A DNA stretch of 64,000 nt from a virus: IMG/VR virus record IMGVR_UViG_3300020471_000004, positions 1-64,000 of that record. One strand, given 5' to 3'. The notes under the pieces were generated by a model. The model did not search any database. It had not been told where the DNA came from and was given only the letters and a program-made list of their open reading frames with translations. Shown in pieces: positions 13,370 to 63,747 of this stretch. How positions within the stretch are numbered: the stretch's first letter is position 1; each line of letters begins with the position of its first letter. A program made the translations under genes and the position numbers.

Positions 13370-13894
13370 CTATACTGGTAAAGGCACGAATGCGTCACAT
13401 GCCACGTTAAGGCTTAGTTTATGCCTGTCATTTGATGCGTAAGTTAATTGCAGAGGTTGGATTCCTAGGGGCCATGCATTACGAGCTATTCCTTCCAAGA
13501 TAACTTCATTCTGGTCATTAAGAAGAAGAAACTTTAGGTCACGCTTGTAGAAAGATGCAGGGTAGTAACCGCCTGTTGAAGGGTTCTGTATTTTGGACTG
13601 CCAGTTCAGTATGTATCTCATAGAACGGGCTTTTTGATCCTCGTAGAGAACCATATCAAAAGGCTGGACTTGACTTCCGCCTGGAAAGAAAATGTTGGTT
13701 GCTGCAATAGTTTTTGATTTTTCAGCTATCTGAGGAAAAGGTAACGAGGCTTCTTCACAATAATGAGGCTGTATAGTTTCAGCACCGTTAAATGTAGGGA
13801 ATGCATCTACAATCCACTTCATTTGCATTAGAGGAGCGCCAGTATCTTTGGTAGCCTCGTATAACTCCTGAATTGTTATTTCTCTTTTTGCCAT
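13370..13894 (-). CDS. Tube-like / baseplate protein
   Basis: 174 residues, beta-rich. The pattern of strands around a long loop (Y-C-E-E-A-S-L-P-F-P near 50, F-D-M-V-L-Y near 80, then W-Q-S-K-I and a final L-Q-L-T-Y-A-S-N-D-R-H-K-L-S-L-N-V) resembles the gp19-superfamily tube fold used by tail tube and tube-initiator proteins. A bona fide tube gene is at 14987-15499, so this one is more likely a baseplate ring or tube-initiator. The assignment is tentative. Confidence 0.45.
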   Translation of the reverse strand: MAKREITIQELYEATKDTGAPLMQMKWIVDAFPTFNGAETIQPHYCEEASLPFPQIAEKSKTIAATNIFFPGGSQVQPFDMVLYEDQKARSMRYILNWQSKIQNPSTGGYYPASFYKRDLKFLLLNDQNEVILEGIARNAWPLGIQPLQLTYASNDRHKLSLNVACDAFVPLPV

Positions 13895-14986: not shown

Positions 14987-15499
14987 TTAGGCAACTTCTT
15001 TGTAGTAGTCGAAGCTGAATTCAACAGCAACAGGAAGAGCTTGCGAACTAGAACCGTCAAAAGAAAGATCAGGTACAGTCTTGGGCCAGACACCGAAGAT
15101 TTCATAAACAGCGGCTTCACTACCGTCCTGTTTAAAGATTCGGAAAGTGCCTGTGACTGCGTAGTCTGCTTTAAAGTTACCAAGCTGAGATTCATGGTCA
15201 CGGCAATAATTAACCCACTGTTCGAGAGGTTTATAAATTGCCATTTCAGAGTTTTCAGCAAACTCTGCACTCATGCTTCCTGTAACGGTATTCTTACCTG
15301 CGTGCCGCACAGTATGACCAAATACTTCTATCAATACTTCTTCGATAGTCATACCAGGCTTAGTAGCAGTACGGCACTGAATACGCAAAGCTTCTCCAGC
15401 ATTTATACCATCAGGTAACTGCGGAAAAGAAAGCTCGTAGTTGTCTGACAATAAAGGATCGCCGATACTTATAGCATCGTCAAGTGTTGGTTTAGTCAT
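14987..15499 (-). CDS. Tail tube protein (gp19-like)
   Basis: 170 residues, the expected length for T4-like tube proteins. It has the family's arrangement: N-terminal S-D-N-Y-E-L-S-F-P, a C-R-T-A-T-K-P-G-M-T strand leading to F-G-H-T-V-R-H-A-G-K, a helix with W-V-N-Y-C-R-D-H, then strands ending V-E-F-S-F-D-Y-Y-K. It is directly downstream of the first sheath gene (12 bases), the classical sheath-tube order. It stacks as hexameric rings forming the DNA conduit inside the sheath. Confidence 0.8.
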   Translation of the reverse strand: MTKPTLDDAISIGDPLLSDNYELSFPQLPDGINAGEALRIQCRTATKPGMTIEEVLIEVFGHTVRHAGKNTVTGSMSAEFAENSEMAIYKPLEQWVNYCRDHESQLGNFKADYAVTGTFRIFKQDGSEAAVYEIFGVWPKTVPDLSFDGSSSQALPVAVEFSFDYYKEVA

Positions 15500-15510
15500 A
15501 TTAAATTACC

Positions 15511-17130
15511 TTATGTCCGGTCGAGATATTCGATAGCTGATTGAATCTGACCCGTTTTCGGAACTACTGCGGTCAAGTGAATTCGTTTGGTATAACGAGT
15601 AGGGTCAAGATAAACATCAACGATTAGATCGCCATTAGCAATAGTGTCATTGGTGTTATTACGACGGTCACAAATAACTTCAAACCAGTACAGGCCACGA
15701 CCGCGGCGCACAGGTTCAAGTAAGTTTGTTAATGTAGTTTTTTGTTGGTCCATCAGCAATTGCGTGATAGGTTTGAACACAGCATATTGGTTATTAAGCT
15801 GTACCGCGGCATGAAGCATAGCAAGCATACGGCGAACACCAACATCCTGTACAGCACTTTTCACAGTGTATAGCGTATCAGCACCCCAAACAACTACACC
15901 GTAGCCTGTCATGTTACGCACGATATTGATTTGGTTTTCAACTAATGCGTTACGGTGACCTTGCTTGTAATTCTGATTAAGATTCAGAATACCATTAAGC
16001 GTACCGTTTTGGATACCTGCAGGTGCAAACCAAGGCGCTTCGTTTTCATCAGTACGAGCATATACCGCAGCTACGTGACCGCTAGGTGGTACCCAAACGT
16101 CAACACCGTTACCTGTATCTCTAACCAATAAGTCAGGGCCGTAGATTGCACTGTGGCTAGAATTCAGGTTCAAGATATTGCGTCTGTAGTCAATAGCTGC
16201 CTGTGTTTCTTGCATATCGCTAGGTAAGTCTAGAACTGCAATACAGTCTTGGCGTACAGTGCAGATGGTATCCATCTTTAATTGAATTGCAGGGTCAGAG
16301 TAGCCTGCATTAATCAAGATGTTTACATCAATTTCTTCTGGGTCCATATAACGATCCCAGGCATTGATAATGTCACCTGTAGTTATTGGGTTACCGTCAC
16401 TACCTTGAGTAAGCTGACCGTTAAGCTCGTTGTTAACGTCATCGCGCATACCTCCACCGATAGCATTAATTAACTGAGGCTTATTGGTATTTGCAAACTC
16501 GTAATGCTGAGTATTGAAACGAATACTCACAAGATTACTACGTTTGTTTACCTGGTCTTCGATATACATTTGACGACCAGACTCGTCTACTTTACGGAAA
16601 CAAGTACCTACGTATTCTTCAAGAGGTATTGTATTTGAACCTTCGTAAACTCGGAAATAGAAGCTATCGCCAGAGTCATCTGCGGTGTTAGGGAAGAACT
16701 CTATCCAGAGATTATTGTTCCATTCACCTTCGTCACGACCGTACACGAGCATAATATCATCTTGTGTTAGTGTGACAGCGTTAGGGTTAGCAAAGCCTGC
16801 ACCTAAGCTTCGAGTATCGCTGTAGTTATTGTCTGTGAATACGATTACGCCGCCGTAAAGGGCATCACGCGCAACACGAGTAAAATATAGGCGATTAGCT
16901 TCTGCTAGAAACGCCTCGGCGCAGTAGTGCGCTTTGTTTTTAACAGGATCTTTCGTGCCGAAAATTCGGCGAAAGTCTTCGTTGTCAGTTGCTAGTGTAG
17001 GTACGCCGATAGGTCCGCGTGTTGAGTACCCTACCATGCCACCAATAGAGGTAGCAGCGGCAGTAATACGCTGGTCACGCAAATTCTCGGCAGTATATAC
17101 ACCCGCTGACGAATTACTGGTAGCAAGCAT
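15511..17130 (-). CDS. Tail sheath protein 1 (main sheath)
   Basis: 539 residues. The N-terminus (S-S-A-G-V-Y-T-A-E-N) and the segment G-Y-S-T-R-G-P-I-G-V-P begin the usual sheath pattern. The C-terminal domain has A-V-L-D-L-P-S-D-M-Q, V-P-P-S-G-H-V-A-A-V-Y-A-R-T-D, W-F-A-P-A-G, and C-D-R-R-N-N-T-N-D-T-I-A-N-G-D. These are conserved in contractile sheath proteins and very similar to the second sheath at 57317-58963. It should polymerise around the tube and contract on infection. Being directly before the tube gene it is the likelier main sheath. Confidence 0.9.
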   Translation of the reverse strand: MLATSNSSAGVYTAENLRDQRITAAATSIGGMVGYSTRGPIGVPTLATDNEDFRRIFGTKDPVKNKAHYCAEAFLAEANRLYFTRVARDALYGGVIVFTDNNYSDTRSLGAGFANPNAVTLTQDDIMLVYGRDEGEWNNNLWIEFFPNTADDSGDSFYFRVYEGSNTIPLEEYVGTCFRKVDESGRQMYIEDQVNKRSNLVSIRFNTQHYEFANTNKPQLINAIGGGMRDDVNNELNGQLTQGSDGNPITTGDIINAWDRYMDPEEIDVNILINAGYSDPAIQLKMDTICTVRQDCIAVLDLPSDMQETQAAIDYRRNILNLNSSHSAIYGPDLLVRDTGNGVDVWVPPSGHVAAVYARTDENEAPWFAPAGIQNGTLNGILNLNQNYKQGHRNALVENQINIVRNMTGYGVVVWGADTLYTVKSAVQDVGVRRMLAMLHAAVQLNNQYAVFKPITQLLMDQQKTTLTNLLEPVRRGRGLYWFEVICDRRNNTNDTIANGDLIVDVYLDPTRYTKRIHLTAVVPKTGQIQSAIEYLDRT

Positions 17131-17160
17131 GTATGTTACTCCTATGGATTTAACTCTACT

Positions 17161-17177
17161 TAACTAGAATTAAATTA
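17161..17177 (-). promoter_or_regulatory. Candidate promoter element upstream of sheath 1
   Basis: The minus strand reads TAATTTAATTCTAGTTA about 31 bases before the sheath ATG, close to the element before the fibre gene at 2364-2380. The 51-base gap between the 131-aa gene and sheath is one of few non-coding gaps in the tail region. A promoter is inferred from the match only. Confidence 0.35.
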
Positions 17178-17181
17178 TTGT

Positions 17182-18694: not shown

Positions 18695-18710
18695 GCCCTA
18701 TCTCCGTGCT

Positions 18711-18733
18711 GAGGGAAGACCTAGTCTTCCCTC
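18711..18733 (-). promoter_or_regulatory. Perfect hairpin after the major capsid gene
   Basis: A 10-base-pair perfect stem (GAGGGAAGAC against its complement) with a 3-base loop lies 14 bases after the capsid stop and 16 bases before the next ATG. It lacks a T tract, so it is more likely an mRNA 3'-end stabiliser or an attenuator that protects capsid mRNA than a full terminator. Confidence 0.6.
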
Positions 18734-18746
18734 GGTTAAACGAATC

Positions 18747-48753: not shown

Positions 48754-48773
48754 TGTTATCTCCAAAAATTAAA

Positions 48774-49781
48774 TTAATCGCCGCCTGCTGTCCAGAACAT
48801 AACACGCATACCTGCGTTATATTGTTTATCAGCCGTCATGCCTTGATAAGTACGCTCATTACTTTCACTGTAAGGATTAGTCGTTAACGTAGAGCTTTGG
48901 CTCAGTACGTCACTTGATATAATCCCTACTAGGTCAAGCTCTGTGTCGTAACCATACCGCTGAGTGCAAAGGCCGTTAGGAAAAGTCAGTACAATCTCAT
49001 TGCCTTCTCTTATAGACACCTGCTGCTTGTTGTTTATGATCCTGTTTGAATCTGCTGTATCTTCTACTGCGGTTACAGGAATAGTAGGTGCATTAACATC
49101 ACTTTCTCTAACAACAAACTTTTGAATAGCATCACCATCCGAAGAACTTGGATTGTAGGAAAATACGCAGAACAGAGGACTTTTGCCTGTTGTAACAGGA
49201 ACACCTGCAGGTGTAACCATTCGCTGACACACAAACCATAAAAACTTATCGCCATCGCTGTCTGCACTTTCAGACCAGATACCTACAGAAATACCGTGAT
49301 TGGTTTGGTTAAAACACAAACTAAAAGGATATGCCTGGGTATCTGAACCTGCAAGTCCCCAAACTTCATAGTCTAAAGTTCTTCGGTATTCACTTTCTCG
49401 GGAACTGTCGAAGTGAACACTGCCGGGAGTAAGTTTACCAGATGCAATACTTTTAGAGTCCTCTTGTTTTTTAAGAGCTATACGCCAGTTGTTATTTGAC
49501 GGATCTACGATGATTTGTTCAGGAGTGACTATATAGATATCCATCCACTGTTCAGATTCGTTGAACTCAAGAACTATACCCCAAGGTTGACTACTAACTA
49601 TAGAATCTATAGTAGAAGTCGCCTTAAGGTAAATCTTTTCTTGAATATTGTCGATATTTCCTGGTTCAGTGTCATCAACTCGAACTACTTCAAAAGAACC
49701 GGAGTCTTTAAAAGTAGAAGCAATCTGGATAACTAGGTCCCGAAACGTCACAATGCCGTTATATAGGAAACTAGAAGACAT
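48774..49781 (-). CDS. Virion paralog family, copy 3 (335 aa)
   Basis: 335 residues. It aligns with the other copies from about residue 65 on (N-H-G-I-S-V-G-I-W-S-E-S, R-M-V-T-P-A-G, V-V-R-E-S-D-V-N-A-P-T, C-T-Q-R-Y-G-Y-D-T-E-L-D) but its N-terminus (M-S-S-S-F-L-Y-N-G-I) differs. It is the most diverged of the five. Same strand and spacing as the rest. Confidence 0.6.
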   Translation of the reverse strand: MSSSFLYNGIVTFRDLVIQIASTFKDSGSFEVVRVDDTEPGNIDNIQEKIYLKATSTIDSIVSSQPWGIVLEFNESEQWMDIYIVTPEQIIVDPSNNNWRIALKKQEDSKSIASGKLTPGSVHFDSSRESEYRRTLDYEVWGLAGSDTQAYPFSLCFNQTNHGISVGIWSESADSDGDKFLWFVCQRMVTPAGVPVTTGKSPLFCVFSYNPSSSDGDAIQKFVVRESDVNAPTIPVTAVEDTADSNRIINNKQQVSIREGNEIVLTFPNGLCTQRYGYDTELDLVGIISSDVLSQSSTLTTNPYSESNERTYQGMTADKQYNAGMRVMFWTAGGD

Positions 49782-49783
49782 AA

Positions 49784-50797
49784 TTAAATACCTGCGCCTT
49801 TAATAAGACAAAACATACGCATGCCTGTATTCCTAGGGAAGTTCGCCTGCATACCAATATATTGTCTTGGTTCGTCTTCACCATATAAAGGTACATCAAT
49901 GGCTTGGTTCTGCGATATAACATCAGCGCTGGTGTAAGCAATCATGTCCAATTCATAGCTATAATCATACCGCTGAGTATTAATACCTTGAGGAAAGCGT
50001 ATAGTGTAGTTATTGTCTTCTGACAAAGAAACTTGTTGCAGAGGATTAATAATAGCACGGCTATCAGGTCCGACTTTAACAGCACTTTCAGGACGAGTAG
50101 GTGCATTAACATCCGTTTCGTAGACTACGAATTTAAGAATAGCTGATTCTACTGCATTAATATCCTCAGAGTCGGCAATATTTGTACTACCTCCACCTGC
50201 TGTGGCAAATACGCAGAACAGAGGACTTTTGCCTGTTGTGACTACAGTACCATCTTTTTGTACAGGTCTTTGAATAGTAAACCAGCTAAAACAGTCACCT
50301 GCCTTATCAAAAGACTCTGCCCACAAAAAGAAACTAATTCCGTGGTCACTGATAGACAGGCGATAGCTAATTGGTATAGCGCGAGGGTCTACACCGCCTA
50401 TATTAAAACACGACCAGTTAGAGTCTGTTCTACTCATGAACTTAGAGTTAGGTTCACCTACTTCATTGTCTAAAAATAAATGACCTGATTGAGAGCTAGT
50501 GCCATTAGCGGCTACCGTATATGTATCACTAAGCTGAGTAACATGGCAAGCCCAGAAGCGTATAAAGCCTCCGTCTGCATCAGTCGCTTCTAATACAAGT
50601 CGCCAATCTTGACCTACAGGATCTACATCAGTAGTAGGGGCAAAAACATAGTGCGTTGTGCCGTCACTAGGAACAGGACTTGAATCACTACCGTTAGCTG
50701 CAATTAAGGTATAACCGTTCGCAACAAGGTCTTGAGCTAGTTCTTTTCCAAGCTTCTGCACAGATACGTAACTATTACGTTCTACAGAAAAGCCCAT
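49784..50797 (-). CDS. Virion paralog family, copy 4 (337 aa)
   Basis: 337 residues, starting M-G-F-S-V-E-R-N-S. It keeps all shared blocks (D-H-G-I-S-F-F-L-W-A-E-S-F-D, Q-R-P-V, N-A-P-T-R-P, I-N-P-L-Q-Q, T-Q-R-Y-D-Y-S-Y-E-L-D-M-I). It is closest to copy 5 by eye. Between them lies a 145-aa unrelated gene. Confidence 0.6.
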   Translation of the reverse strand: MGFSVERNSYVSVQKLGKELAQDLVANGYTLIAANGSDSSPVPSDGTTHYVFAPTTDVDPVGQDWRLVLEATDADGGFIRFWACHVTQLSDTYTVAANGTSSQSGHLFLDNEVGEPNSKFMSRTDSNWSCFNIGGVDPRAIPISYRLSISDHGISFFLWAESFDKAGDCFSWFTIQRPVQKDGTVVTTGKSPLFCVFATAGGGSTNIADSEDINAVESAILKFVVYETDVNAPTRPESAVKVGPDSRAIINPLQQVSLSEDNNYTIRFPQGINTQRYDYSYELDMIAYTSADVISQNQAIDVPLYGEDEPRQYIGMQANFPRNTGMRMFCLIKGAGI

Positions 50798-50806
50798 TTC
50801 GTTCTC

Positions 50807-51241
50807 CTATCTATTTCGAAACTTATGGAGGTTTCTTTCACTTTTAAAATGGTTCAGAAGCACATGATGTTCAGGAGTACCTGGTATCATCCAAGAGCTA
50901 GGAGGCTCTACGTGGTTCTGGAATTCTTTGTTAAACAGTTTGTAACCTTCGCCCAACTCTTTATCAGAGTTTAAGGCTCTTTGCATTATCTCTCCGTCAA
51001 TTGCATTCTGCCTAGTAAAAGCCTTTACCATCCTTTCTTTGACTTTCGAACCATATACAAACGTATACAATTCAGGAGTAGGCATCTTTAAGTATAAACG
51101 AAATGCCTTAAAGAACCCTCTTGCTACTTCCAGTATATGGTCTTTTTCAATATCAAGATAGTAGATCAAGTTCATCACATCATGCAGTTCCCTAGCTAAA
51201 CCTATCTTGGGAATATTGTTTAGAGAGATAAGCATTCTCAT
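50807..51241 (-). CDS. Small protein with MLISLN start, inserted in paralog array
   Basis: 144 residues from the TAATG-overlapping ATG (51239-51241); the M at residue 3 begins MLISLNNIPKIG, the ISLS-type peptide. The rest is helical and basic (K-V-K-E-R-M-V-K-A-F-T-R) with no recognised domain. It splits copies 4 and 5 of the array, so it may have been inserted after duplication or retained as a partner. Confidence 0.55.
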   Translation of the reverse strand: MRMLISLNNIPKIGLARELHDVMNLIYYLDIEKDHILEVARGFFKAFRLYLKMPTPELYTFVYGSKVKERMVKAFTRQNAIDGEIMQRALNSDKELGEGYKLFNKEFQNHVEPPSSWMIPGTPEHHVLLNHFKSERNLHKFRNR

Positions 51242-52269
51242 TAAAAACCTTTACCTTGAGTCTGGCATAAAAGACGCATACCTGTATTATTAGGAAAGTT
51301 CGCATTGAGAGCTTTATACGTTCTCATAGAAGACTCACCAAATACAGTGAAGCTAGGTTTAGACCACTGGCTCAATACGTCAGCACTGGTATACGCGATC
51401 ATATCCAATTTGTAGTCGTACATGTAACGGTCAGTAGTGAAGCCTTGCGGCATTCTGATAACATAGTTGCTATCTTCCATAAGAGCAATTTGCTGGATAG
51501 GATTAATAACAGGATAGTTATCAGCCGTAGGTACTATTGCAGTTACAGGGATTGTCGGTTTATTAATGTCTTCTTCTCGTACCACAAACATTTGAATAGT
51601 ATTTGTGACTTTAGGAGACACTGCATTGTTAAGTAAACCTATATCGTCTATACCGTTTTGAGAAAACAGGCACATCAGCATAGCCTTTCCGTCGGTTACA
51701 ACTAGACCTGTATTGCAATCTACAGGTCGTTGAATCAGAAACCAACAAAAGCAGTCACCTGCCCCGTCAAAAGACTCTGCCCACATGTGAAAGAAGACAC
51801 CGTGGTCAGTAACCGATAAGTGGTAACTAAGCGGAATATTCTTTTCATCTACACCGTCTGGTTTGTAACAAGACCAGCGTGTATTGTCTTGAACCCTGCT
51901 CCAAAAGAAACTGCCATCGGCATCAGCCTCAGCAACATTCCCTAAGCTAAGCCGTCCGCTGTCGTAGTCTTCCTTGTATTGAGTAGGACTGTTAGTGTCG
52001 TCAATCTGTGTAGGCGTAAGGGCCCATACATTTATATAGCCTGAACTTTGGTTAAACTCTAGCATAAGACGCCAAGGCTGATCTTCTATCAAAGGGTCAA
52101 CACTGTCGTCAGGTTCTAGAATATAGTGGTTTGTAGAAGCTTGATAAGAACTGGTATCAAGCTTATCGGCAGCAATAACTTTAAAGCCTGTAGTCTCTAG
52201 ATCTTTTACAATCTGGAAACCCATAGCAGTAATGTCAGTAAAGCCGTTACGTTCTATACTTAGACTCAT
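51241..52269 (-). CDS. Virion paralog family, copy 5 (342 aa)
   Basis: 342 residues, starting M-S-L-S-I-E-R-N-G-F. It keeps T-D-H-G-V-F-F-H-M-W-A-E-S-F-D, Q-R-P-V-D, V-V-R-E-E-D-I-N-K-P-T-I-P, I-N-P-I-Q-Q-I and T-T-D-R-Y-M-Y-D-Y-K-L. It is the first of the array in transcription order and overlaps the 267-aa fibre-like gene by one base. Confidence 0.6.
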   Translation of the reverse strand: MSLSIERNGFTDITAMGFQIVKDLETTGFKVIAADKLDTSSYQASTNHYILEPDDSVDPLIEDQPWRLMLEFNQSSGYINVWALTPTQIDDTNSPTQYKEDYDSGRLSLGNVAEADADGSFFWSRVQDNTRWSCYKPDGVDEKNIPLSYHLSVTDHGVFFHMWAESFDGAGDCFCWFLIQRPVDCNTGLVVTDGKAMLMCLFSQNGIDDIGLLNNAVSPKVTNTIQMFVVREEDINKPTIPVTAIVPTADNYPVINPIQQIALMEDSNYVIRMPQGFTTDRYMYDYKLDMIAYTSADVLSQWSKPSFTVFGESSMRTYKALNANFPNNTGMRLLCQTQGKGF

Positions 52270-53084: not shown

Positions 53085-55577
53085 TTACGGGTTACCTGAC
53101 CCTTCGTTACTTGAACCATATGTGATAGCAAAGGTCTGTGTAGGACCATACGCAACGTCAGTACGGTAAATATAATATTCAGTGCCGCCAACTGTAACTT
53201 CTGCAGGAGATCCAAATGAACCATCTTGCCAAGTATGGCGACCCATGTCCCAACTACCTGCGGTATTATTAGCAGTATTAACAATGTACAAGTAGCCCCA
53301 TTCTTTCGGATACATAATAAAACCTTGTTCGGTATTATTATCATTCAGAGGTCCTACTGTAATTTCTTCACCGTTAGTTCCTTCTAGGCTACCTGTAAGT
53401 AAATCGTAGAACGCTGGGCTTGCGTAGTCTGCAATGTAGTCTTGAATAGGTGCAATACCCCATCTAGGTGATACATCGCTATCTGCAACATTGAGCGTAA
53501 GGTTACCTGTAACAGTGGTTCCGTTCTCAACATAAGTACCACGTACTGTAACAACTTTATTGCCTGTAACGTTACCGAGCAATACATCATTAGAGTTAGA
53601 ACCTGCGAACGTGCTGCCGTATGCATTGTTAACAAATGACGGAGTAAGGTCAGGACTTGCTTTAACGTCTGCGGTACTACCATCATTATAAGTAACAGTG
53701 TAGGCAATAATTGCAGTCTCACCTTCAGTGTAGTCGTTGTCAGGGCTTGTGGTTAATGCAAGCGATACAGGAACTAGTGCAGCCGCGATAATATCAACGT
53801 TTTTAGTCGCACTCATTTCAACACCGTTAATGGTATGAGTAGCACTGATAGTAACCTGTTGATCGTTTTCAATATCACCTGCTGTTAGTCTACCGCTACC
53901 ATTTATAGAACCGTAGGTGTCACCTGCGGTTAGTGACCAATCAGCATCTGCTGTGTAGGTCTGAGTAGTAGAATTATCAAACGTTACACGTAAGCTATAA
54001 TTGCTGCTGGTTTGCTCGTTGACAGAGTTAGCACCGATAATAGTTGCAGACACAGGAACAGGCGGATTATTAGTAAGAGTAACATCTAGTGTACCTGTAA
54101 TAGTCTTGCCGTATTCGGTAAACTCTGCTTGTAGCCTAACAGTACGGTCTTGATTGATTGAGTTAGCAGTAAGCTCGTAGCCATTAAGAGTACTATAAGC
54201 GTTAGACAGTTGCGTAAAGGTATCTGGGGTAAACGGATGTTCTTCACTGCCGTCATCGCGCACAAGCCTTACAGTATACGTAGCGCTTTCACCTTCTGCG
54301 ACTGACGTTGGTCCAACTATTTCAAGAGACTGAATAAGAGGATCTGTATCTACTACTGTAACGGTTTTGGTTGCTGAAACCTCAGTACCATCGTAAGTAT
54401 AGGTAGCAGAAATAACAACAGGCTTATCGCCGCCGTTAACCTCTTTGGCACTTAGCAATGCTGCACCGGTGATAGTTGCGTGAGCAGTAGAATCTAGGCT
54501 AATCGCGTCTGCTACAACATCTTGAGTAGAGTTATCACTAAAGGTAGCTCTAATGATATACTGAGAGTCAGTGTTTTCATCTACCAAGTTGTCACCGACT
54601 ATTTCAAGTCTAGTTATCTCCAGACCTGCCTGGATTTCAATACTGTGGTTATCTGTTGCAGTAACACCATCTTCGGTATAGCTTGCATTAAGAACAACCT
54701 GAGTATTAGAAGTAACGTTGTTGGTAACAAAGTTGCCTGCAGTATTGATACTTGAAACAGTATTGTTAGAAGTGGTAAATGTATTAGGTGTAACAATACT
54801 TGTTCTGCCGTCTGCGTAGAAAGCAGTAACGGTCATTTGTACAGATGATTGTTCAGGTATAGACGTAGGTCCGTTGATCTGAATAGCAATAAGAGAAGTA
54901 TCTACTTCCACCAAATCGTCCTGTGTAGGGAAACGCCAAATAGCAATCCATTCATTAGAATTGTCTTCGCTTTGTCCTATAAGAAACAGCATCATTCCTT
55001 GTTGAGGAGGCGCACTATTAGAAACCAATGCGTATTCATTGGCATTAATTTTTATTTTGGTACGCGGCTTATCTGGGTGCGTATGGAATACAGGATAACG
55101 TGGATTAGAGTTTCTAGGGTCTTCAATAGAAACAACACGTGCCTCAGGTTCAGGACCACTAAGCAATCCGAGTCCGTGTTCAGATACAGTGGCAGGTCCA
55201 GTAGGTTCTGAGTTAGTAGATATACCATAAAGTCTAGGGTCTTCAACAACTGGAGTATAATACTGCGCTTCTACCCATAAGTCTGCGTAAGCGGTCAACT
55301 CTTCCCAAGAATTATCATAAAAGCCGCTGTCGCTGTGGCTAATACGTTTTAAAACTTTCTTGTAAGCAGGATGATCACTATCAGCAGGGATCCAAAGAAC
55401 GTTATAAGGCAACTGACTAAAAGTAGGCTCTAGATAAGATACTACAACAATAAATGTTTTGTTAGGGTTGCTTCGTTCAGGTTGTACCGTAAACTGGATA
55501 GGATTTGTAGGCTCAATGTTACGATACCCTGCAAGTGCAAGGTAATTTTCAATAAAGTCTATTAACTGTTGGTCCAT
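53085..55577 (-). CDS. Structural protein with Ig-like (Big_2-type) repeats, 830 aa
   Basis: 830 residues. The first ~220 share blocks with the next two upstream proteins (L-P-Y-N-V-L-W-I, W-E-E-L-x-x-Y-x-D-L-W-V-E, D-P-R-N-S-N-P-R-Y-P-V). From ~230 to ~690 are about five Ig-like repeats of 90 residues with S-V-N-E-x-x-S-x-x-Y-x-x-x-x-T-x-x-x-x-x-x-x and A-T-Y-T-x-x-G-x-E. The end (~690-830) is beta-rich with many aromatics. It is likely a fibre or head/tail decoration that reaches the cell surface. Confidence 0.6.
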   Translation of the reverse strand: MDQQLIDFIENYLALAGYRNIEPTNPIQFTVQPERSNPNKTFIVVVSYLEPTFSQLPYNVLWIPADSDHPAYKKVLKRISHSDSGFYDNSWEELTAYADLWVEAQYYTPVVEDPRLYGISTNSEPTGPATVSEHGLGLLSGPEPEARVVSIEDPRNSNPRYPVFHTHPDKPRTKIKINANEYALVSNSAPPQQGMMLFLIGQSEDNSNEWIAIWRFPTQDDLVEVDTSLIAIQINGPTSIPEQSSVQMTVTAFYADGRTSIVTPNTFTTSNNTVSSINTAGNFVTNNVTSNTQVVLNASYTEDGVTATDNHSIEIQAGLEITRLEIVGDNLVDENTDSQYIIRATFSDNSTQDVVADAISLDSTAHATITGAALLSAKEVNGGDKPVVISATYTYDGTEVSATKTVTVVDTDPLIQSLEIVGPTSVAEGESATYTVRLVRDDGSEEHPFTPDTFTQLSNAYSTLNGYELTANSINQDRTVRLQAEFTEYGKTITGTLDVTLTNNPPVPVSATIIGANSVNEQTSSNYSLRVTFDNSTTQTYTADADWSLTAGDTYGSINGSGRLTAGDIENDQQVTISATHTINGVEMSATKNVDIIAAALVPVSLALTTSPDNDYTEGETAIIAYTVTYNDGSTADVKASPDLTPSFVNNAYGSTFAGSNSNDVLLGNVTGNKVVTVRGTYVENGTTVTGNLTLNVADSDVSPRWGIAPIQDYIADYASPAFYDLLTGSLEGTNGEEITVGPLNDNNTEQGFIMYPKEWGYLYIVNTANNTAGSWDMGRHTWQDGSFGSPAEVTVGGTEYYIYRTDVAYGPTQTFAITYGSSNEGSGNP

Positions 55578-55923: not shown

Positions 55924-56649
55924 CTATACCAAAACAATATCAGCAGAGACCAAAGTCAGGCTGTTCATTGCATCTTGGTGAAGTCCGTTATCTCGGTCAG
56001 GTTCAGTAACAGAAGGATAAACGTGATTAGAAGTCAAGTCTCCCCAACTGGCATCCCCTAGGTGGTCAGTGAGCAAGGTATTACCTTCATCAGAAGTACC
56101 GTACTCGATAACTACTGCTCTACCTGTAGTCGCTAAACGTGTAGCAGGAACTTCATCATGCATTTCATCATGCGGAAGAGGATCACGCGCATCTGATAAA
56201 GTAGGGTCACCTTCACCGATAGCTACAGGGTCACCTGGATTTGTAGGAGTAACAGTAAGCGTAACCATACCGAGTGCGTCCGTAGAAGAATCAGGAGTGC
56301 TAGGAAGAATATCGTCACCAGAATCCCAAAATTGGTCTTCCCAAAGGTCAACGTACTGAGTAATTTCAACCCACGTATGTACAGTATTGCCACTTTGAGG
56401 AGTAGCTTTTGACTCTCTTCGGTATACTGTCAGGTAATCTGACTTAGACGAATCAAATTGGACCCAAAGAACGTTAAGAGGTAACGTTAAATCGTGCGGC
56501 TCTGTTTTTGCAGCAACTACAGTAGTGGTTTTAGCAATAACAGGATTTGTTCGGCGTACAATAACAGGTTGAGTGTGGCTCTCAATATCTGCGTAATCTC
56601 TAATATCGTGAACAAAGTCACGAAGTTTTTGTGCTTGCTCAGTAGCCAT
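55924..56649 (-). CDS. Paralog of the Ig-protein N-terminal domain, 241 aa
   Basis: 241 residues. It shares with 53085-55577 and 56661-57305 the blocks L-P-L-N-V-L-W-V, Y-R-R-E-S-K, W-V-E-I-T-Q-Y-V-D-L-W-E-D-Q, P-T-N-P-G-D-P-V, D-P-T-L-S-D-A-R-D-P-L-P-H. It is a baseplate- or sheath-associated virion protein by context; function unknown. Confidence 0.55.
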   Translation of the reverse strand: MATEQAQKLRDFVHDIRDYADIESHTQPVIVRRTNPVIAKTTTVVAAKTEPHDLTLPLNVLWVQFDSSKSDYLTVYRRESKATPQSGNTVHTWVEITQYVDLWEDQFWDSGDDILPSTPDSSTDALGMVTLTVTPTNPGDPVAIGEGDPTLSDARDPLPHDEMHDEVPATRLATTGRAVVIEYGTSDEGNTLLTDHLGDASWGDLTSNHVYPSVTEPDRDNGLHQDAMNSLTLVSADIVLV

Positions 56650-56660
56650 AGGATGCTCCT

Positions 56661-57305
56661 TTATGCAATATCATCTGGTGTAATTTTACGCCATTCAAGG
56701 TCACCTGAAGGAGTAAACATCAAAGCAGCGCTAACCTGTGCAATACTATTTAGAATATTACCGTGACCTGCCGAGTGTGCTAACATAGTAGCAGGTTTCT
56801 CTACGTGCGTGTGTGACTTAGGTACTCGGTTATCGCTCATTCGGGGGTCATCAGACACAATGAACACAGGCTGGTTAGGGTCTGTAGGGTCAACACTGAT
56901 TCGTGCTTTACCTGGGCCTTCTACACTAGCGTAAGGTACTGGTGTAACACCTACCAGTGCCAGATCAGAAGGGTCATAAGTTTGGTCTTCAAGAATATCC
57001 TCATAGAAGTAAAGAACTTCCCAATCTTGAGTAATACCTTCCGAACCGAAAGAACCTGGTGATTTAGATACTCGACGTAATGCTTGTTTGTACAAAGGGC
57101 TATCTGCTCGATAACATATCCATACAACGTTTAAAGGGAGAACCATATTAATAGGTTCTCCCTGGCTGCAAACAATCGCAATAGTACGATTGGTGTGTAC
57201 GTCAGTATGCCTCATAACTATCGGTGTATCTTCGGAAACGTTTTTAACATCTGATAGTTTTTCAAGAGTGTTAATTAGTTTCTCTAGTTTTGATTCCATA
57301 CCCAT
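56661..57305 (-). CDS. Paralog of the Ig-protein N-terminal domain, 214 aa
   Basis: 214 residues, same family as 55924-56649 (L-P-L-N-V-V-W-I, W-E-V-L-Y-F-Y-E-D-I-L-E-D-Q, D-P-T-D-P-N-Q-P-V, D-D-P-R-M-S-D-N-R-V-P-K-S-H). It begins 11 bases after the second sheath gene, which suggests that these proteins attach to that sheath or its baseplate. Confidence 0.55.
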   Translation of the reverse strand: MGMESKLEKLINTLEKLSDVKNVSEDTPIVMRHTDVHTNRTIAIVCSQGEPINMVLPLNVVWICYRADSPLYKQALRRVSKSPGSFGSEGITQDWEVLYFYEDILEDQTYDPSDLALVGVTPVPYASVEGPGKARISVDPTDPNQPVFIVSDDPRMSDNRVPKSHTHVEKPATMLAHSAGHGNILNSIAQVSAALMFTPSGDLEWRKITPDDIA

Positions 57306-57316: not shown

Positions 57317-58963
57317 TTACGCGTCTGTGGCTGTAGAGCCAGTAGGGTTTACATTAAAGACAACGTGAATACGCTTGGCTGCAATAACAGGATCCATATA
57401 CATGTCCAGAATCACATCACCGTTAGCAATAGTGTCGTTGGTGTTGTTACGCGAATCACAGATATTTGTAAACTCGTAAACACCTTGACCTCTACGGATA
57501 GGCTCTAGAGTGCTATCAGCAATAGCTTTCATTCTGTCACGCAATAACTGGTCATTCGGACGGAATACTCCAATCTTACTACTGCGTACCATTGTTTTAA
57601 GTACGTGCTTGACTAGTCTAACAACGTTAACGTATTGGAAAGACGTAGCCTGTGTTTGAGTAGTAGACTGACCCCAGATAACGTTACCTTGACCTCGAGG
57701 CATTTTGCGAATCGGATTGATTTGCGCCTGGTCTAGTGCGTTACGTGCGCCTTGGTCATAGTGGACTCGCATACCTAAAACACTTAAAGAGCCTAGTTCG
57801 ATACCTGCAGGAGCAAACCATAAAGCACGGTCATTATCTGCTTTTGCAAATGCGGCAGCTACGTAACCTGAAGGCGGCACATAGATTTCTAAGTCATTAG
57901 CAGAGTCATATACCAACACATCACTTGAATAGATAGCACACGCATGGCTAGACATATTAAGGATGTTTTTCTTGTAGTTGATTGCATCGGCAACTTCTTG
58001 CATGTCGCTAGGCATATCAAGAATTGCTATACAGTCATTACGGGCTAGCGCAATTTCGTTCATTGCATGTTGCACAGTATGGTGAGTGTAACCACCGTTA
58101 ACCATAATATCAATATCGATTTCTTCCGGGTCGCTGTAATTTTCTTGCCACGCTTCAATGATTTGGTCATTGGTAACAGGTAGTCCGTCAGTACCTCCAT
58201 CGAGCTGTACACTAGCGGTATTGACAATATCAAACTCAGGACAAAGAGTATTGTTTCGACAACGAACGAGATTAGATTTCTTGTTGATTACTTCTTCAAT
58301 ATGCAACTGGTTACCAGCTTCATCTGATTCGTAATGGCGAGTAACAAGGAAACTTTCATCAGGCGCAACGTTACCTGTAGGTTTAGTACGGTAAACATCG
58401 ACATAGAAGTATAAGGGGTTATGACCGTTACCGCGTAAAGCAACACCGATAGGGTTAGATGGGCGTACAACGATAGTAATACCGTTGTTCCATTGACCGG
58501 GGTCTATTGCGCAGAAGTAGCAAGGTAAGCTCGTAACACCAGGCGTAGTAGGAGTAAATCCGTAAGTATTAAGCGGATCATCTTTACCTTGAGCATTGCC
58601 TGTGGCAGAGTCTTTGAATACAGTAAGGGCAAGTTGAGGATTTTGTGCGTTAACGTCATCCACACTTAACATTGCGCCTGCTGTGAGAGCGCCGTTAACT
58701 ACGCGAGTAACGTAACACATGCTTGATTGGTTTAAGAAAGGTTCAACAGAGTATGCCATGTAACCGTAGCTAGGGTCACCAAAGCCGAATTTAGCTTTGT
58801 ATTTTGCAAAATCTGTTACCAGGGTACGTTGACCAACAGGGCCACTAGGAGCAGCACCTACAAATGCAGCAATAGAGCTTGGCGCATTATCAGGTCTTTC
58901 GCTGAGGTCTTTGATATAACTGTAGACCCCGTAAGCTGGATTTGATGGGTTTATTGTAGACAT
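57317..58963 (-). CDS. Tail sheath protein 2 (paralog)
   Basis: 548 residues. It has the whole sheath pattern: V-G-A-A-P-S-G-P-V-G near the start, A-I-L-D-M-P-S-D-M-Q, V-P-P-S-G-Y-V-A-A-A-F-A-K, W-F-A-P-A-G-I-E, and C-D-S-R-N-N-T-N-D-T-I-A-N-G-D. It is clearly paralogous to the sheath at 15511-17130 and similar in length, but the N-terminal domain differs, with a long loop (V-D-D-V-N-A-Q-N...). It is the first gene of an operon with three fibre-related paralogs. A special sheath ring, an alternative sheath or mixed sheath are all possible. Confidence 0.85.
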   Translation of the reverse strand: MSTINPSNPAYGVYSYIKDLSERPDNAPSSIAAFVGAAPSGPVGQRTLVTDFAKYKAKFGFGDPSYGYMAYSVEPFLNQSSMCYVTRVVNGALTAGAMLSVDDVNAQNPQLALTVFKDSATGNAQGKDDPLNTYGFTPTTPGVTSLPCYFCAIDPGQWNNGITIVVRPSNPIGVALRGNGHNPLYFYVDVYRTKPTGNVAPDESFLVTRHYESDEAGNQLHIEEVINKKSNLVRCRNNTLCPEFDIVNTASVQLDGGTDGLPVTNDQIIEAWQENYSDPEEIDIDIMVNGGYTHHTVQHAMNEIALARNDCIAILDMPSDMQEVADAINYKKNILNMSSHACAIYSSDVLVYDSANDLEIYVPPSGYVAAAFAKADNDRALWFAPAGIELGSLSVLGMRVHYDQGARNALDQAQINPIRKMPRGQGNVIWGQSTTQTQATSFQYVNVVRLVKHVLKTMVRSSKIGVFRPNDQLLRDRMKAIADSTLEPIRRGQGVYEFTNICDSRNNTNDTIANGDVILDMYMDPVIAAKRIHVVFNVNPTGSTATDA

Positions 58964-58967
58964 TAAG

Positions 58968-59049
58968 TAACTCCCTAAAGGAATAAGGCTTTTTATATAA
59001 AAGACCGTGTAAACAGCTTTACTATAAAATTATTAAACTTAGGGAGTTA
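58968..59049 (-). promoter_or_regulatory. Leader in which SD of sheath 2 can pair with upstream arm
   Basis: On the minus strand TAACTCCCTAA (at 59049-59039) is the perfect 11-base complement of TTAGGGAGTTA (at 58978-58968), which contains the ribosome site AGGGAG of sheath 2, with 60 bases between. Pairing would hide the ribosome site. The candidate promoter core lies just inside the upstream arm, so transcripts started there would lack that arm and escape. This is inference from sequence. Confidence 0.5.
59020..59032 (-). promoter_or_regulatory. Candidate promoter element of sheath 2
   Basis: The minus strand reads TAATTTTATAGTA, identical to the motif before the scaffold gene, 57 bases before the sheath 2 ATG. 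A run of T and A (TTTTATATAAAAA) lies downstream. See the shared-motif finding. Confidence 0.45.
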
Positions 59050-59067
59050 TTAAAGAGCGGAATATAA

Positions 59068-60165
59068 CTATCGAGCGCCAACAGCTCTACGAGCCATCAA
59101 CATCATTGTGCTGAATCGGTGGTGCAGTAAAGTTTTTACAGTAAGATTAGACTCCATCAAATGTTTCAACTTTTCTAAGTCAGTAACAGAGCCGTCCATT
59201 AAGAAAATGTCGTGTCCCATTACTAACTCAGGATGGCTGCAACGGTTTGCTAGTAAAGGTAAACAATCGTAATACATAGACTCTGCAATACAGTATCCGA
59301 AGTTTTCTTCTATTGAATGAGAAATCATTACCTTAGATTCAGCAAGAACTTTGTAGTACTCTTTCTTAGAAAGTCCTGCCTTTATTGTTACTAAACCTTT
59401 GGCGGCTAAAGCTTCTGCTTGACTTATCAAAGAGGGGTTGTTGCCTCTAAACGAAGACCTGCTGGTACAGATTACAATTTCACAACTGGGGTCTATATTG
59501 TTTTTGTAGTCTAGTGCTAGGTAAACACTTTGCATTGGACGTTTTTCAGTATCAAATCGATTAGGTAAAACAATTTGATTCTTTTTGGCTTTAACTTCTA
59601 CGCCCACATCAAACTGATCTTTAAACAGCGGGTTACCTGACACATAGATAATCTCAGAGATTGTTTGTTCAAGTGCCTGATCACCTATTGGTTTTACCCG
59701 TCTCTCAATAAAGGCGTTTTTATGGTACATACTACCAACAAATACCTGGTCACAAGCAAGAACCCAGCCTAGCTCAGTATAACGCTGATAAGACTCTGCG
59801 ATACTAAACGCATCTTCTACGGTGTAAGATGCTGCGTGAAGAAAGCCTGTGATTCTAACATTAATGCCGTTCATCTGGGACATTAATCGTACAGACTCTA
59901 GACCCCAGAACTCTATATCCCCGAAGAAAAAAGAATCTCCTTCGCTTACTTGACCTGAATTAAATAAAGCGCTTATCTTTTGCAACTGCACCATCTTATA
60001 GTGAATGGTACTGTTAATATCAAGGAAAGTACCTACAACAACTTCATCTTGCAAGGGAGTGCCGTCAATAATAACACAGTCATCAAAATACCCAGGTATT
60101 AAGTCATACCATTGTTGGGTGTACCGCTCTTCGAGAGGCTCTATAGGCACATAAAATACTGTCAT
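59068..60165 (-). CDS. GT4-type glycosyltransferase (GT-B fold)
   Basis: 365 residues. The C-terminal half has the GT-B sugar-nucleotide site pattern V-M-I-S-H-S-I-E-E-N-F-G-Y-C-I-A-E-S-M-Y-Y-D-C-L-P-L-L-A-N-R-C-S-H-P-E (split here as S-H-S-I-E-E-N-F-G, E-S-M, H-P-E-L), as in GT4 enzymes. The N-terminal half has F-L-H-A-A-S-Y and V-F-V-G-S-M-Y-H. It transfers a sugar from a nucleotide donor; acceptor unknown. It follows the 134-aa gene with ATGA overlap and precedes the regulated leader of sheath 2. Confidence 0.75.
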   Translation of the reverse strand: MTVFYVPIEPLEERYTQQWYDLIPGYFDDCVIIDGTPLQDEVVVGTFLDINSTIHYKMVQLQKISALFNSGQVSEGDSFFFGDIEFWGLESVRLMSQMNGINVRITGFLHAASYTVEDAFSIAESYQRYTELGWVLACDQVFVGSMYHKNAFIERRVKPIGDQALEQTISEIIYVSGNPLFKDQFDVGVEVKAKKNQIVLPNRFDTEKRPMQSVYLALDYKNNIDPSCEIVICTSRSSFRGNNPSLISQAEALAAKGLVTIKAGLSKKEYYKVLAESKVMISHSIEENFGYCIAESMYYDCLPLLANRCSHPELVMGHDIFLMDGSVTDLEKLKHLMESNLTVKTLLHHRFSTMMLMARRAVGAR

Positions 60166-60566
60166 AGCTCTTGGTCTCCTTCAAAATCCTCAGGAACTGT
60201 TTTGTATGCGCTTTCTACAGCAAAAGCATTTACATGTAAATCGCGATGAAATTTAATCTGGTCTGTAGGTTTAAGAAACCAGTAAGAGTCAGATTCAACG
60301 TGAAGCATTATAGATACCTCGTCAGGCCATTTCTCTGTAACCTGAGTAACTTCAAGAGTTATAAACATGCCTTGGTCTATTAGCCAAGCTAAATCTGAAG
60401 AAGAAGGATCAAGAGTGTTATCGTGGTCGCTTACGTAAATTGCTTTTACGCTAGATAATGTTTTATCATCTGCAAAAAGTGCTCTAGCACCAACTAGCTC
60501 TTGTGCATCACAAAAAAGAGTCTTAATACCTTTTAAGCGCCCTTCTACTTCTATTCCGATTTTCAT
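60162..60566 (-). CDS. Hypothetical protein in sugar-gene cluster
   Basis: 134 residues starting MKIGIEVEGRLKGIK. It has I-Y-V-S-D-H-D-N-T-L-D (about 48-58) and L-K-P-T-D-Q-I-K-F-H-R-D-L (about 98-110). I recall similar unassigned proteins in other large phages but no function. Despite MKIG- it does not fit the internal-head peptide. It is coupled by overlap to the GT4 gene. Confidence 0.55.
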   Translation of the reverse strand: MKIGIEVEGRLKGIKTLFCDAQELVGARALFADDKTLSSVKAIYVSDHDNTLDPSSSDLAWLIDQGMFITLEVTQVTEKWPDEVSIMLHVESDSYWFLKPTDQIKFHRDLHVNAFAVESAYKTVPEDFEGDQEL

Positions 60567-60574
60567 AATGTACC

Positions 60575-61237
60575 TTAGTAATTGTATGTTAGTTGTTCTT
60601 TGTTGTAAGTAACGCTAAACCCTGAGAAAGGGTAGCTATTCAAAAAGAATGCCGCTGCCTGGTCAAGATTGGTTACTTGTTGTAGACCTGTGAAGTCATG
60701 TTTAGTTCCTACCGGACACTTTACAGAAAACGTAACCATATCTCCTGAGTGTGTCATTATGCGGCTTGAATACGCATAGATCATATCACTGGGTACGCAA
60801 GACTCGAACAACCAATACTTTTCGTCTTCAAACAGAGAAGCCTGACTAGGATATAACTCTAGCAAAGCTTCTCTCTTTTGTTTTTGTTGATCAGGTTCTA
60901 GCACATCAAACTCTACATTCATATCGATAGAGTAATACTGAATGTTAGAGAAATAACGCTTGGCAATATTGTTTACCATCTTGTGGTGAACGTGATTATC
61001 GCCGATGTTAGGGGCAAGAACAGGAGTTTCTGAATCAAAACGACTTCTTATAAACTTCTCAGGATCGCCGTCTGAAAAGTAAATAGGTATGCTGTACTTG
61101 TCCGAGAAAGTTTGTGCTTCGGCTATTCTGTCTTCAAACAAATCAAAGAAGTAAACTACGGCAGTTACTTCTTGATTAACTATTTGTCTCCAACAGCCGA
61201 TAAGCTCGTCATCAACATGAGGTGCTAGAACTATCAT
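60575..61237 (-). CDS. PIG-L/LmbE-family deacetylase
   Basis: 220 residues. It has the family's zinc-binding A-P-H-V-D-D-E-L-I-G near residues 5-14 and a second histidine pair N-H-V-H-H-K at about 80-85. PIG-L proteins remove N-acetyl groups from sugar derivatives such as GlcNAc-PI or bacillithiol precursors. The C-terminal third (from about 160) holds a beta segment with V-K-C-P-V-G-T-K-H-D-F. Together with neighbouring glycosyltransferases it suggests a sugar-modification path. Start overlaps the PP-loop gene by one base (TAATG). Confidence 0.75.
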   Translation of the reverse strand: MIVLAPHVDDELIGCWRQIVNQEVTAVVYFFDLFEDRIAEAQTFSDKYSIPIYFSDGDPEKFIRSRFDSETPVLAPNIGDNHVHHKMVNNIAKRYFSNIQYYSIDMNVEFDVLEPDQQKQKREALLELYPSQASLFEDEKYWLFESCVPSDMIYAYSSRIMTHSGDMVTFSVKCPVGTKHDFTGLQQVTNLDQAAAFFLNSYPFSGFSVTYNKEQLTYNY

Positions 61238-61791
61238 TAAAATACCTTAATAAGGTTATGCTCACCTGTATATTCAGGAGTAAGATAAATGCCTTGTGAC
61301 TCTAGGTAATCAAATACGTCTTGGTCAGTCCAGTCGTAAATAGGATAGACAAACGTAAGACCAAACATAGAATTCTCTAAAACAGGAGGCATATCTTTTC
61401 TGTTAATGTCTTGTCCATCTACCATCACAGTAGTGCATTTAACAGTACGGTCGTACTCTGCTCTGCGTGAACCGTCAATCTGCGCTTTGTAACCACAACG
61501 GTCAACATGGTCTTCCATGTGACTGCGGTGTACAAAGTTTACGTCCTGACCTTGAACTGCCATAGCATAAAGCAAGTTAACAGTATAGGGGTGTGTGTCA
61601 GGATAACCTTTAGCGTTGTGTACCCATTCAATTGAATTAGGGCCATTTTCTTGTTCAAACAAGTGTCGGACACATACGCTATCTTTTCCGCCTGATGTGC
61701 CGCCGTATATAGCAGATAATCCGAATCTGCCTACCGCTTCTGCAATAATAGCTTTTGCATTCTCTACCTTAGCTGCAAGTTCTTTATTCAT
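61237..61791 (-). CDS. PP-loop ATPase, PAPS-reductase-like
   Basis: 184 residues from ATG at 61789-61791, which overlaps the upstream stop as ATGAATAA and has GGGGA 8 bases before; a longer start (61839) would overlap the neighbour by 56 bases. It has S-G-G-K-D-S, the ATP-binding PP-loop, and H-L-F after it; D-G-S-R-R-A-E-Y and P-I-Y-D-W-T-D-Q-D-V-F-D-Y-L are in the places seen in PAPS reductases and DndC-like proteins. It adenylates or reduces a sulfur or nucleotide substrate; which is not known. Another reading, QueC-like, is less likely. Confidence 0.7.
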   Translation of the reverse strand: MNKELAAKVENAKAIIAEAVGRFGLSAIYGGTSGGKDSVCVRHLFEQENGPNSIEWVHNAKGYPDTHPYTVNLLYAMAVQGQDVNFVHRSHMEDHVDRCGYKAQIDGSRRAEYDRTVKCTTVMVDGQDINRKDMPPVLENSMFGLTFVYPIYDWTDQDVFDYLESQGIYLTPEYTGEHNLIKVF

Positions 61792-62575
61792 CAGAATTTC
61801 CCCAAGTTTTTCCCGGAACGTCTTTTGTCCACAGGTCATTGTTTAAGTGAGAACCGGTACGGTCAGTGTGATAAGCATTTGCTACCAAGAACTCTAGGTC
61901 GGAGTCAAACAGCGAGCATATAAATACATCTACTCCTCTTTGACCTTTAGGCCAGCTTTTTAGTTTAGCCATTGCTTCTGCATTATTCTTTACAGATTTA
62001 GCAGACACCATAAAAGAGCCGCTGCTTAGACCTCGATTAGAAATATCGATAGCTACGTTGTGCTCTGTCTCTACATAATGCTTGTGTAGATAAGGCTTTG
62101 CTTGAGACAAACTGGTTGCCTTTTTTATCGCGTGTCCTATATCGAAGGGTTCATGTAAATAAGGATCCCAATCTGAATATTTTCTACGGTTAATCACTTC
62201 GTAAAATCCGTATAGGCATGCGCTACGTCCGTACTCTGCATGTTTAATCAAAGCATTACTTGTGATAGCAGGGACCAAAGAATCGTCATCTACACTTATC
62301 CAGTAATCTGCATCTGTACATTCCAGCATGTGGTGGTACATGTAAGCAAGAGACTTATCAGAAGAGTGTTTATGTACCACAAAGTCACTATCTCTACAAT
62401 GTGCTAGTGCACCTAGAGTATTCAAATAGTGGTCTATCGTTTCTGTTTCAAGAAAGTTAAGATTCATAACAAACTCGATACCGCCTTGATTGGTAAGTAT
62501 GTTGGTTGCAGCAGCATACACATCAATAAAACGGTCTACACTTGCACAAGAGGTGCTAAACATTATTCTGTTCAT
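61784..62575 (-). CDS. GT-A type glycosyltransferase-like protein
   Basis: 263 residues. It has W-I-S-V-D-D-D-S-L-V-P (about 92-102), a DxD-type metal site in a GT-A fold, with a preceding helix of H-K-H-S-S-D-K-S-L-A-Y-M-Y. No TPR or other domain. It precedes the PP-loop gene with an 8-base overlap, in the same cluster as the GT4 and PIG-L genes. The acceptor is unknown. Confidence 0.6.
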   Translation of the reverse strand: MNRIMFSTSCASVDRFIDVYAAATNILTNQGGIEFVMNLNFLETETIDHYLNTLGALAHCRDSDFVVHKHSSDKSLAYMYHHMLECTDADYWISVDDDSLVPAITSNALIKHAEYGRSACLYGFYEVINRRKYSDWDPYLHEPFDIGHAIKKATSLSQAKPYLHKHYVETEHNVAIDISNRGLSSGSFMVSAKSVKNNAEAMAKLKSWPKGQRGVDVFICSLFDSDLEFLVANAYHTDRTGSHLNNDLWTKDVPGKTWGNSDE

Positions 62576-62579
62576 ATGG

Positions 62580-62939
62580 TTATTCCCAAGTAAAGTCTAC
62601 ACGCGAACCGCATTCGCCGTCTTCTGAAACATCAACATAGAAGTTTCTTCTAGGATACTTTTCAGAGATATAAAGACCTAGGTCTTTGCACAACATTTCA
62701 CAGCTTTTGTGGTTTATGTCAATAGCGCCTGAGTCTAGTTGAGATTCTAGTTCTTCTTGGAACATGTGAAACTCTATCTCACGGTCATCGTGAAATACTT
62801 CGATACCGATTTCAAACTTAAACAAGTGTCGGTGTCGGGACTTCAAATACTCTACTTGATCAGGAGCATCAGGGTAGAAGTGAAAACCTTTACGTTGAAA
62901 GCGAACATAAATGGAAGTCTTTTGTTTTAAAATAGGCAT
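62580..62939 (-). CDS. PTPS-like small protein
   Basis: 119 residues from ATG at 62937-62939, with GAGGA just upstream; the longer start (62990) would overlap the J-domain gene by 50 bases. Residues about 36-60 (R-H-R-H-L-F-K-F then D-D-R-E-I-E-F-H) and S-C-E-M-L, V-S-E-D-G-E-C-G at 79-83 and 104-111 follow the order of PTPS/QueD folds (His pair, catalytic Cys or Glu, S-x-E), but it lacks clear HGH. Close relatives occur in many large phages as unassigned proteins. Function inferred only as PTPS-like fold. Confidence 0.55.
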   Translation of the reverse strand: MPILKQKTSIYVRFQRKGFHFYPDAPDQVEYLKSRHRHLFKFEIGIEVFHDDREIEFHMFQEELESQLDSGAIDINHKSCEMLCKDLGLYISEKYPRRNFYVDVSEDGECGSRVDFTWE

Positions 62940-62940
62940 A

Positions 62941-63747
62941 CTATTCCTCGAATGTGAATTCATCACTGTCTGTAGGCGAAACAAAAACACCAGAACGGTG
63001 CATTTCTATTTTGCGTTTATATATTGCTATCTTTTCTTTACAGAATTCGATAGTGGCGTTGAGCATGTTAAGATAAAACACGCTAGCTACTCTAGACCCA
63101 TGCAAAGTATACATGGTCATAACAGGATAGAATTCATCCTTCTTTATGTCTTCTATCTGATATTCAATTTCTGAGATTTTTATTTCTAGTTGTTCTTTCT
63201 CTACTGCTCTTTGCTCAAAGTCAGGACGGTTCTTTAAGTCTTTAAGGTAATCGGCTCGTGCTTTCTTATCAAAGACCAGTTTATAGATAGCTTTTAATTC
63301 ATCTAGGTCAAGCAGTTCGTATGCTTCAACAGCACGATGGTAAAAGTCTACCTTGCCTGAATCCCCTACTTTATCTGGATGTGTTTCGTTAACTATCTTT
63401 CGGTAGATCTCTCTGCAAATAGACTGGTGTGCTTTTGATATATCCCTTTCGTCTGCTTTGAAATCGTTTCCTTCCTCGTTAAGGTAATCGTCTTCATCTT
63501 GGTCTAGATCAGAACGCATCTGGGCACTGGTAAGTCTATCGAACTCTTCGGATATATCACTAAGCTCTGCCATCAAGCGCTCTTTTTCGGCAGCTTCCTC
63601 AATATTAGCACTGTCTACAATATCTAAAACTTCTTCATGGAGAACATTTAAAGCTTTAAGCTCTTTTTGTGAAGAAGCCAATAACTTTTTAAGTTTCGAA
63701 ATTTCTGAAACACTGACTTTGTAGGGATCGTACAGTACAGGTAACAT
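62941..63747 (-). CDS. J-domain (DnaJ-like) protein
   Basis: 268 residues. A charged coiled coil spans about 10-100. Residues about 107-165 form a J-domain: Y-R-K-I-V-N-E-T-H-P-D-K-V-G, with the HPD tripeptide needed to stimulate Hsp70 ATPase, then A-V-E-A-Y-E-L-L-D-L-D. A second helical region follows (180-250). It may recruit host DnaK for virion assembly or for another viral task. A hairpin lies upstream of its start. Confidence 0.75.
   Translation of the reverse strand: MLPVLYDPYKVSVSEISKLKKLLASSQKELKALNVLHEEVLDIVDSANIEEAAEKERLMAELSDISEEFDRLTSAQMRSDLDQDEDDYLNEEGNDFKADERDISKAHQSICREIYRKIVNETHPDKVGDSGKVDFYHRAVEAYELLDLDELKAIYKLVFDKKARADYLKDLKNRPDFEQRAVEKEQLEIKISEIEYQIEDIKKDEFYPVMTMYTLHGSRVASVFYLNMLNATIEFCKEKIAIYKRKIEMHRSGVFVSPTDSDEFTFEE

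Follow-up and report, generated by a model that had tools for sequence, protein, structure and literature searches.

Long-retained tail sheath paralogs of an uncultivated marine phage and their probable role in a single mixed sheath

The window analyzed here, bases 1 to 64000 of the 232,692-bp record IMGVR_UViG_3300020471_000004 of an uncultivated marine virus, carries two full-length tail sheath genes, S1 and S2, which are likely to encode two subunits of one mixed contractile sheath, as in phage PaBG. To our knowledge, almost all contractile tails have one sheath protein. The statement in the initial annotation that contractile phages usually have one is right in general but overlooks a two-sheath group (PaBG, Lu11, Y3, Dickeya and Erwinia phages, and NCTB) that was already published. 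The pair is real but ordinary for its group, and the basic fact is on record for PaBG and its kin. The two genes are as follows.

15511..17130, minus strand: S1, tail sheath protein of 539 amino acids, ortholog of PaBG gp76, in the head/tail morphogenesis block
57317..58963, minus strand: S2, second tail sheath protein of 548 amino acids, ortholog of PaBG gp213

The coordinates and strands first assigned to these genes were exact, and both products match PF04984 (Phage_sheath_1) above its cutoff of 31.4 bits (S1, 76.6 bits, E 2.7e-21; S2, 58.8 bits, E 8e-16) as well as PHROG 23, "tail sheath" (S1, E 6.5e-85; S2, E 3.5e-81). For PF17482, S2 scores 37.5 bits, above the cutoff of 26.9, while S1 falls slightly under it at 25.1 bits. 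Both genes are of intact length, as first noted. In BLASTP, 216 of 555 positions were identical (39%, E 6e-124) and S2 residues 7 to 542 were aligned, and a comparison of the S1-family and S2-family profiles gave a probability of 100% over 516 columns. A Phage_sheath_1 search of the entire 232,692-bp record returned these two places and no third sheath gene. The long C-terminal pattern said to be shared by the two proteins is also real, reading ICDRRNNTNDTIANGD in S1 and ICDSRNNTNDTIANGD in S2. Its codons differ between the genes at synonymous sites, which points to conservation instead of a recent copy and rules out gene conversion within the motif. Within one genome, likeness between S1 and S2 is highest in the subtilisin-like and C-terminal domains and lowest in the N-terminal and outer parts, a distribution that fits a common lattice with differing outer surfaces, although the trend is partly seen among orthologs too.

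AlphaFold models of the two proteins had mean pLDDT values of 80.7 (S1) and 80.5 (S2), and the best Foldseek matches of both were phage sheaths, namely, T4 gp18 and a Klebsiella phage sheath of the T4 type (KP1-type), with best E values of 2.6e-32 and 4.7e-30. As modeled, S1 and S2 would both retain a complete sheath fold, with the C-terminal domain through which subunits are linked. Confidence was low over the first 23 to 26 residues of each model, as expected if the N terminus is an arm that folds only against its neighbors.

Possession of two sheath genes is a stable trait of this group. Both were found in nine of nine named relatives (NCTB, PaBG, Lu11, HRDY3, Y3, JA29, Yoloswag, fHe-Yen9-02, and Alexandra), and two sheath places were found in the 199,927-bp IMG/VR contig 3300020428_000007 (OM428). 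An S2 profile search recovered the second sheath from all 15 IMG/VR contigs of at least 129 kb, a set that was selected for carrying S1 and that, given near-duplicates, represents about 10 independent lineages. Two annotated sheaths have been described in all PaBG-group members except phiRSL1 (PMC6143709) and in Dickeya and Erwinia relatives (PMC6143709, PMC9686651, PMC8472413). Motura, BcepSaruman, BcepSauron, and PhiXhv phages each have a single sheath place; in Motura, BcepSaruman, and PhiXhv-12, the sheath is related (~30% identity) and adjoins tube genes, as S1 does, but is single and longer (652 to 665 amino acids). Two GenBank entries listed as complete genomes of 78 and 108 kb (PV550095 and PV359490) carry S2 sheaths like those of Erwinia and Dickeya jumbo phages and appear to be parts of larger genomes.

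A tree inferred from 50 sheath proteins (LG+C20+F+G4) places S1 and S2 sequences on opposite sides of one branch, with near-mirrored topologies, and the one-sheath phages outside both. The tree is consistent with the earlier proposal that a duplication postdating the divergence from the Mieseafarmvirus lineage produced the two sheaths (PMC7412058). Support for the S1 and S2 clades was moderate (66/84 and 70/98, respectively) because a deep contig at their base, G018, has two similar copies, and an alternative tree uniting the two G018 copies fits equally well. If the G018 rows are disregarded, all other S1 rows group as a clade with 100/100 support, as do all other S2 rows. The copies in G018 (IMGVR_UViG_3300049182_000044; tree rows L234 and L245) are unusually alike, at 39 to 81% by region, and either represent a very early branch or have been homogenized.

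We compared pairwise distances for S1 and S2 across 21 genomes. The two genes evolve at an equal rate, for which the means (1.782 and 1.783) are the informative part, since the correlation (r = 0.95) is expected for any gene pair of one genome. Between the window and OM428 or NCTB, dN was ~0.18 to 0.23 and dS was >2 for both sheaths, values that suggest strong purifying selection on each, although with dS saturated only the direction of this result is safe. Codon adaptation is nearly equal as well (S1 and S2, respectively, 0.563 and 0.569 in the window and 0.577 and 0.565 in PaBG), which may weakly suggest similar expression. The level of identity between S1 and S2, together with the tree, rules out a recent duplication. 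It is thus hardly credible that S2 is a recent redundant copy heading for loss; the duplication predates the group, low dN/dS and the retention of S2 throughout the group refute such a reading, and we found no points in its support.

The two genes lie in distinct neighborhoods, with the following features.

14987..15499, minus strand: tail tube protein adjoining S1 (PHROG 45, E 1e-28)
13370..13894, minus strand: second tube-like protein (PHROG 45, E 1.1e-15)
56661..57305, minus strand: gene after S2 (PHROG 13325), by position the ortholog of PaBG gp214
53085..55577, minus strand: long tail protein or fiber of the S2 unit, 830 amino acids (PHROG 14098, "tail protein," E 9.2e-90)
46517-52269: five paralogs in the S2 unit (PHROG 12249, labeled "tail sheath")

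S1 sits in the head/tail block, with the tail tube gene directly downstream, and the gene upstream at 18747-19826 is likely that of the major capsid protein, judging by its position relative to Alexandra and PaBG. S2 heads a unit of fiber-related paralogs, as the initial annotation proposed: it is followed by a run of minus-strand genes from 57305 down to 42295 with small gaps, and an N-terminal domain is common to the products of 56661-57305 and 55924-56649 and the start of 53085-55577. The order of S2 and the gp214-like gene is conserved in NCTB, PaBG, Lu11, and HRDY3. Both contexts also occur in NCTB and PaBG; the S2 context is found further in Lu11, HRDY3, Y3, JA29, Yoloswag, and fHe-Yen9-02 and that of S1 in Alexandra. 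In the block upstream of S2 (59068-63747), gene 59068-60165 resembles a glycosyltransferase and gene 61237-61839, with the motif SGGKDS, a PP-loop sulfurtransferase, both as read from sequence only.

The PHROG 12249 paralogs were considered as further sheaths and rejected. An hhalign comparison with the S1 family showed no homology (probability 0.2, E 0.36), so a genome with seven sheaths can be dismissed, and neither a convincing Pfam family nor a solved structure was found for these proteins. The "tail sheath" label of this family, which recurs in the annotation of Y3, JA29, Yoloswag, and fHe-Yen9-02, looks wrong.

The presence of two sheath and two tube-like genes might suggest an alternative or second tail with S2 as its sheath, whether a switchable tail, a decoy, or a separate injection particle. 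Two PHROG 45 tube matches were found in each two-sheath genome tested and also in Motura, which has one sheath. Against a second tail, no second set of neck, tape-measure, or baseplate genes is annotated beside S2 in NCTB, PaBG, or their relatives, S1 and S2 have a leader motif in common, and both PaBG sheaths occur in purified virions. We regard a second tail as very improbable; the decoy and alternative-tail roles suggested in the initial annotation are without support.

PaBG provides the most direct evidence on how the two proteins are used. Its gp76 and gp213 were both visible as Coomassie-stained virion bands (PMC7412058, Table 1), and gp214 is likewise a virion protein (PMC7412058). The listed mass of gp213 (58,471.68) matches PaBG S2 translated from the second ATG of the gene (58,471.0), that of gp76 (57,891.91) is close to PaBG S1 (57,927), and gp214 was matched by mass to the gene after S2, read from a later ATG. 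Orthology of S1 and S2 to gp76 and gp213 is supported by the tree, synteny, and this mass match. A passage of PMC7412058 that cites Kurochkina et al. 2018 describes the PaBG sheath as "consisting of two separate proteins," an arrangement known in the literature as a two-component tail sheath; the present pair belongs to this PaBG type. The window resembles PaBG in having two full-length paralogs at separate loci, S1 beside tube genes and S2 followed by a gp214-like gene and long fiber genes. As part of an uncultivated marine phage, it differs from PaBG in having extra short fiber genes after S2 and, before S2, a strong hairpin that hides the Shine-Dalgarno (SD) sequence, the ribosome-binding site. 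Virion support for a mixed sheath would carry over from PaBG at 45% (S1) and 43% (S2) identity, and the gel bands give neither the ratio nor the position of the two proteins.

The closest named relative is NCTB, from a Trichodesmium bloom (LT598654), with which the window shares gene order, TAATTT, and the leader hairpin; identities are 74% for S1 and 73% for S2, so that ~26% of sheath residues differ. The "Lupandier" group, or hairy Myoviridae (Lu11, Y3, JA29, AD1, Yoloswag, and Alexandra), likewise has two sheath genes in the same kinds of context, but ortholog identity is ~33 to 40%, and most enterobacterial members tested are without an SD-hiding S2 hairpin.

The leaders of both genes contain the hexamer TAATTT, which, together with the SD-hiding hairpin of S2, is new in the present analysis.

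17131..17181, minus strand: S1 leader, with TAATTT at 17172-17177 and without an SD-hiding hairpin
58964..59067, minus strand: S2 leader of 104 nt, with TAATTT at 59027-59032 and hairpin arms at about 59038-59049 and 58968-58979

TAATTT was present in 32 of 32 S1 and S2 leaders (130 nt each, from the window, named phages, and contigs), which are related by descent and are not 32 independent cases, while no hexamer exceeded 13 in 200 dinucleotide shuffles. The sequence flanking TAATTT varies widely among leaders. On the coding strand of the window, 6 of 23 occurrences are intergenic, intergenic DNA making up 1.9% of bases, versus none of the 19 on the opposite strand. The intergenic minus-strand copies stand in leaders of late-type genes, at 2375, 15503, 17172, 22683, 48766, and 59027. 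In this phage group, TAATTT may act as a late promoter element, a candidate function suggested by its placement. The two features annotated in Lu11 (ctgtaaataacaagta) were considered as a published late promoter and are unlike TAATTT.

The initial annotation credited S2 with its own regulated leader, of which the folding part stands and the regulation is a prediction. The leader folds with a z score of -3.58, and its SD (GGGAG) is buried in a long stem, pairing with distant upstream bases at 0.999, the highest value among 59 window genes and one that none of 150 shuffles equaled. A similar hairpin is found in OM428, NCTB, G005, G004, Lu11, and Yoloswag (at most 4 of 150 shuffles as strong) and a weaker one in G018, HRDY3, and L260; by the shuffle test, Y3, JA29, and fHe-Yen9-02 show no SD hiding before S2, and in PaBG, L272, and G006 it falls short of significance. 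Because the S1 leaders of G018 and JA29 score high too, the contrast between S1 and S2 is a tendency. Read by eye, the arms are complementary in the three closest sequences (window, OM428, and NCTB), and one base pair is changed on both sides, from A-U to U-A, between the window and OM428. Translational control by the hairpin is possible. The leader of the gene at 18299-18694 (region 18299-18746) hides its SD as well, ranking second of the 59 genes with a pairing of 0.95.

Contractile injection systems carry several sheath proteins (Afp2/3/4 and PVC 2/3/4) and in this respect resemble the present phage, in that Afp and PVC likewise have more than one sheath paralog per machine. However, their sequence similarity to S1 and S2 is confined to the core domain, and they are encoded in different gene clusters. 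By analogy, S2 might form a specialized ring, proximal to the baseplate or neck, that links the fibers encoded downstream to the tail. S2 is always encoded with fiber and tail genes, apart from S1, its leader hairpin could reduce S2 dose to a level suiting a terminal ring, and the sequence matches include multisheath eCIS baseplates (6rao, 6j0n, and 9qgl). Yet PaBG gp213 is as visible by Coomassie staining as gp76, equal rates and near-equal codon adaptation suit comparable doses, and S2 retains the whole-length architecture of S1. The ring, one of the roles initially suggested, is the main rival reading, although we consider it unlikely. Possible, if doubtful, is that S2 is a distinct subunit with attachment sites for the downstream-encoded fibers or "hairs," its dose set by the SD-hiding hairpin. 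If true, this would imply that hairy jumbo phages have a two-protein sheath that is both patterned and decorated.

Of the roles initially put forward, the mixed sheath is supported by the co-retention of both genes, their equal rates, the shared leader motif, the complete folds of both sheaths, and the virion data for PaBG. We propose that S1 and S2 are ancient paralogs that would jointly form one contractile sheath on a single tail. Expression of both would be late, apparently from leaders with TAATTT, and the two proteins would mix in one sheath lattice. Both would also be required in the present phage, and we suggest that neither gene has been lost because both are needed.

A lineage that has kept two sheaths for its whole history offers a natural test of how a lattice may be divided between two subunits. 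The window extends the sheath pair to uncultivated marine phages, with constraint that is equal for the two copies. TAATTT and the hairpin before S2 provide two testable leader elements through which S1 and S2 may be dosed.
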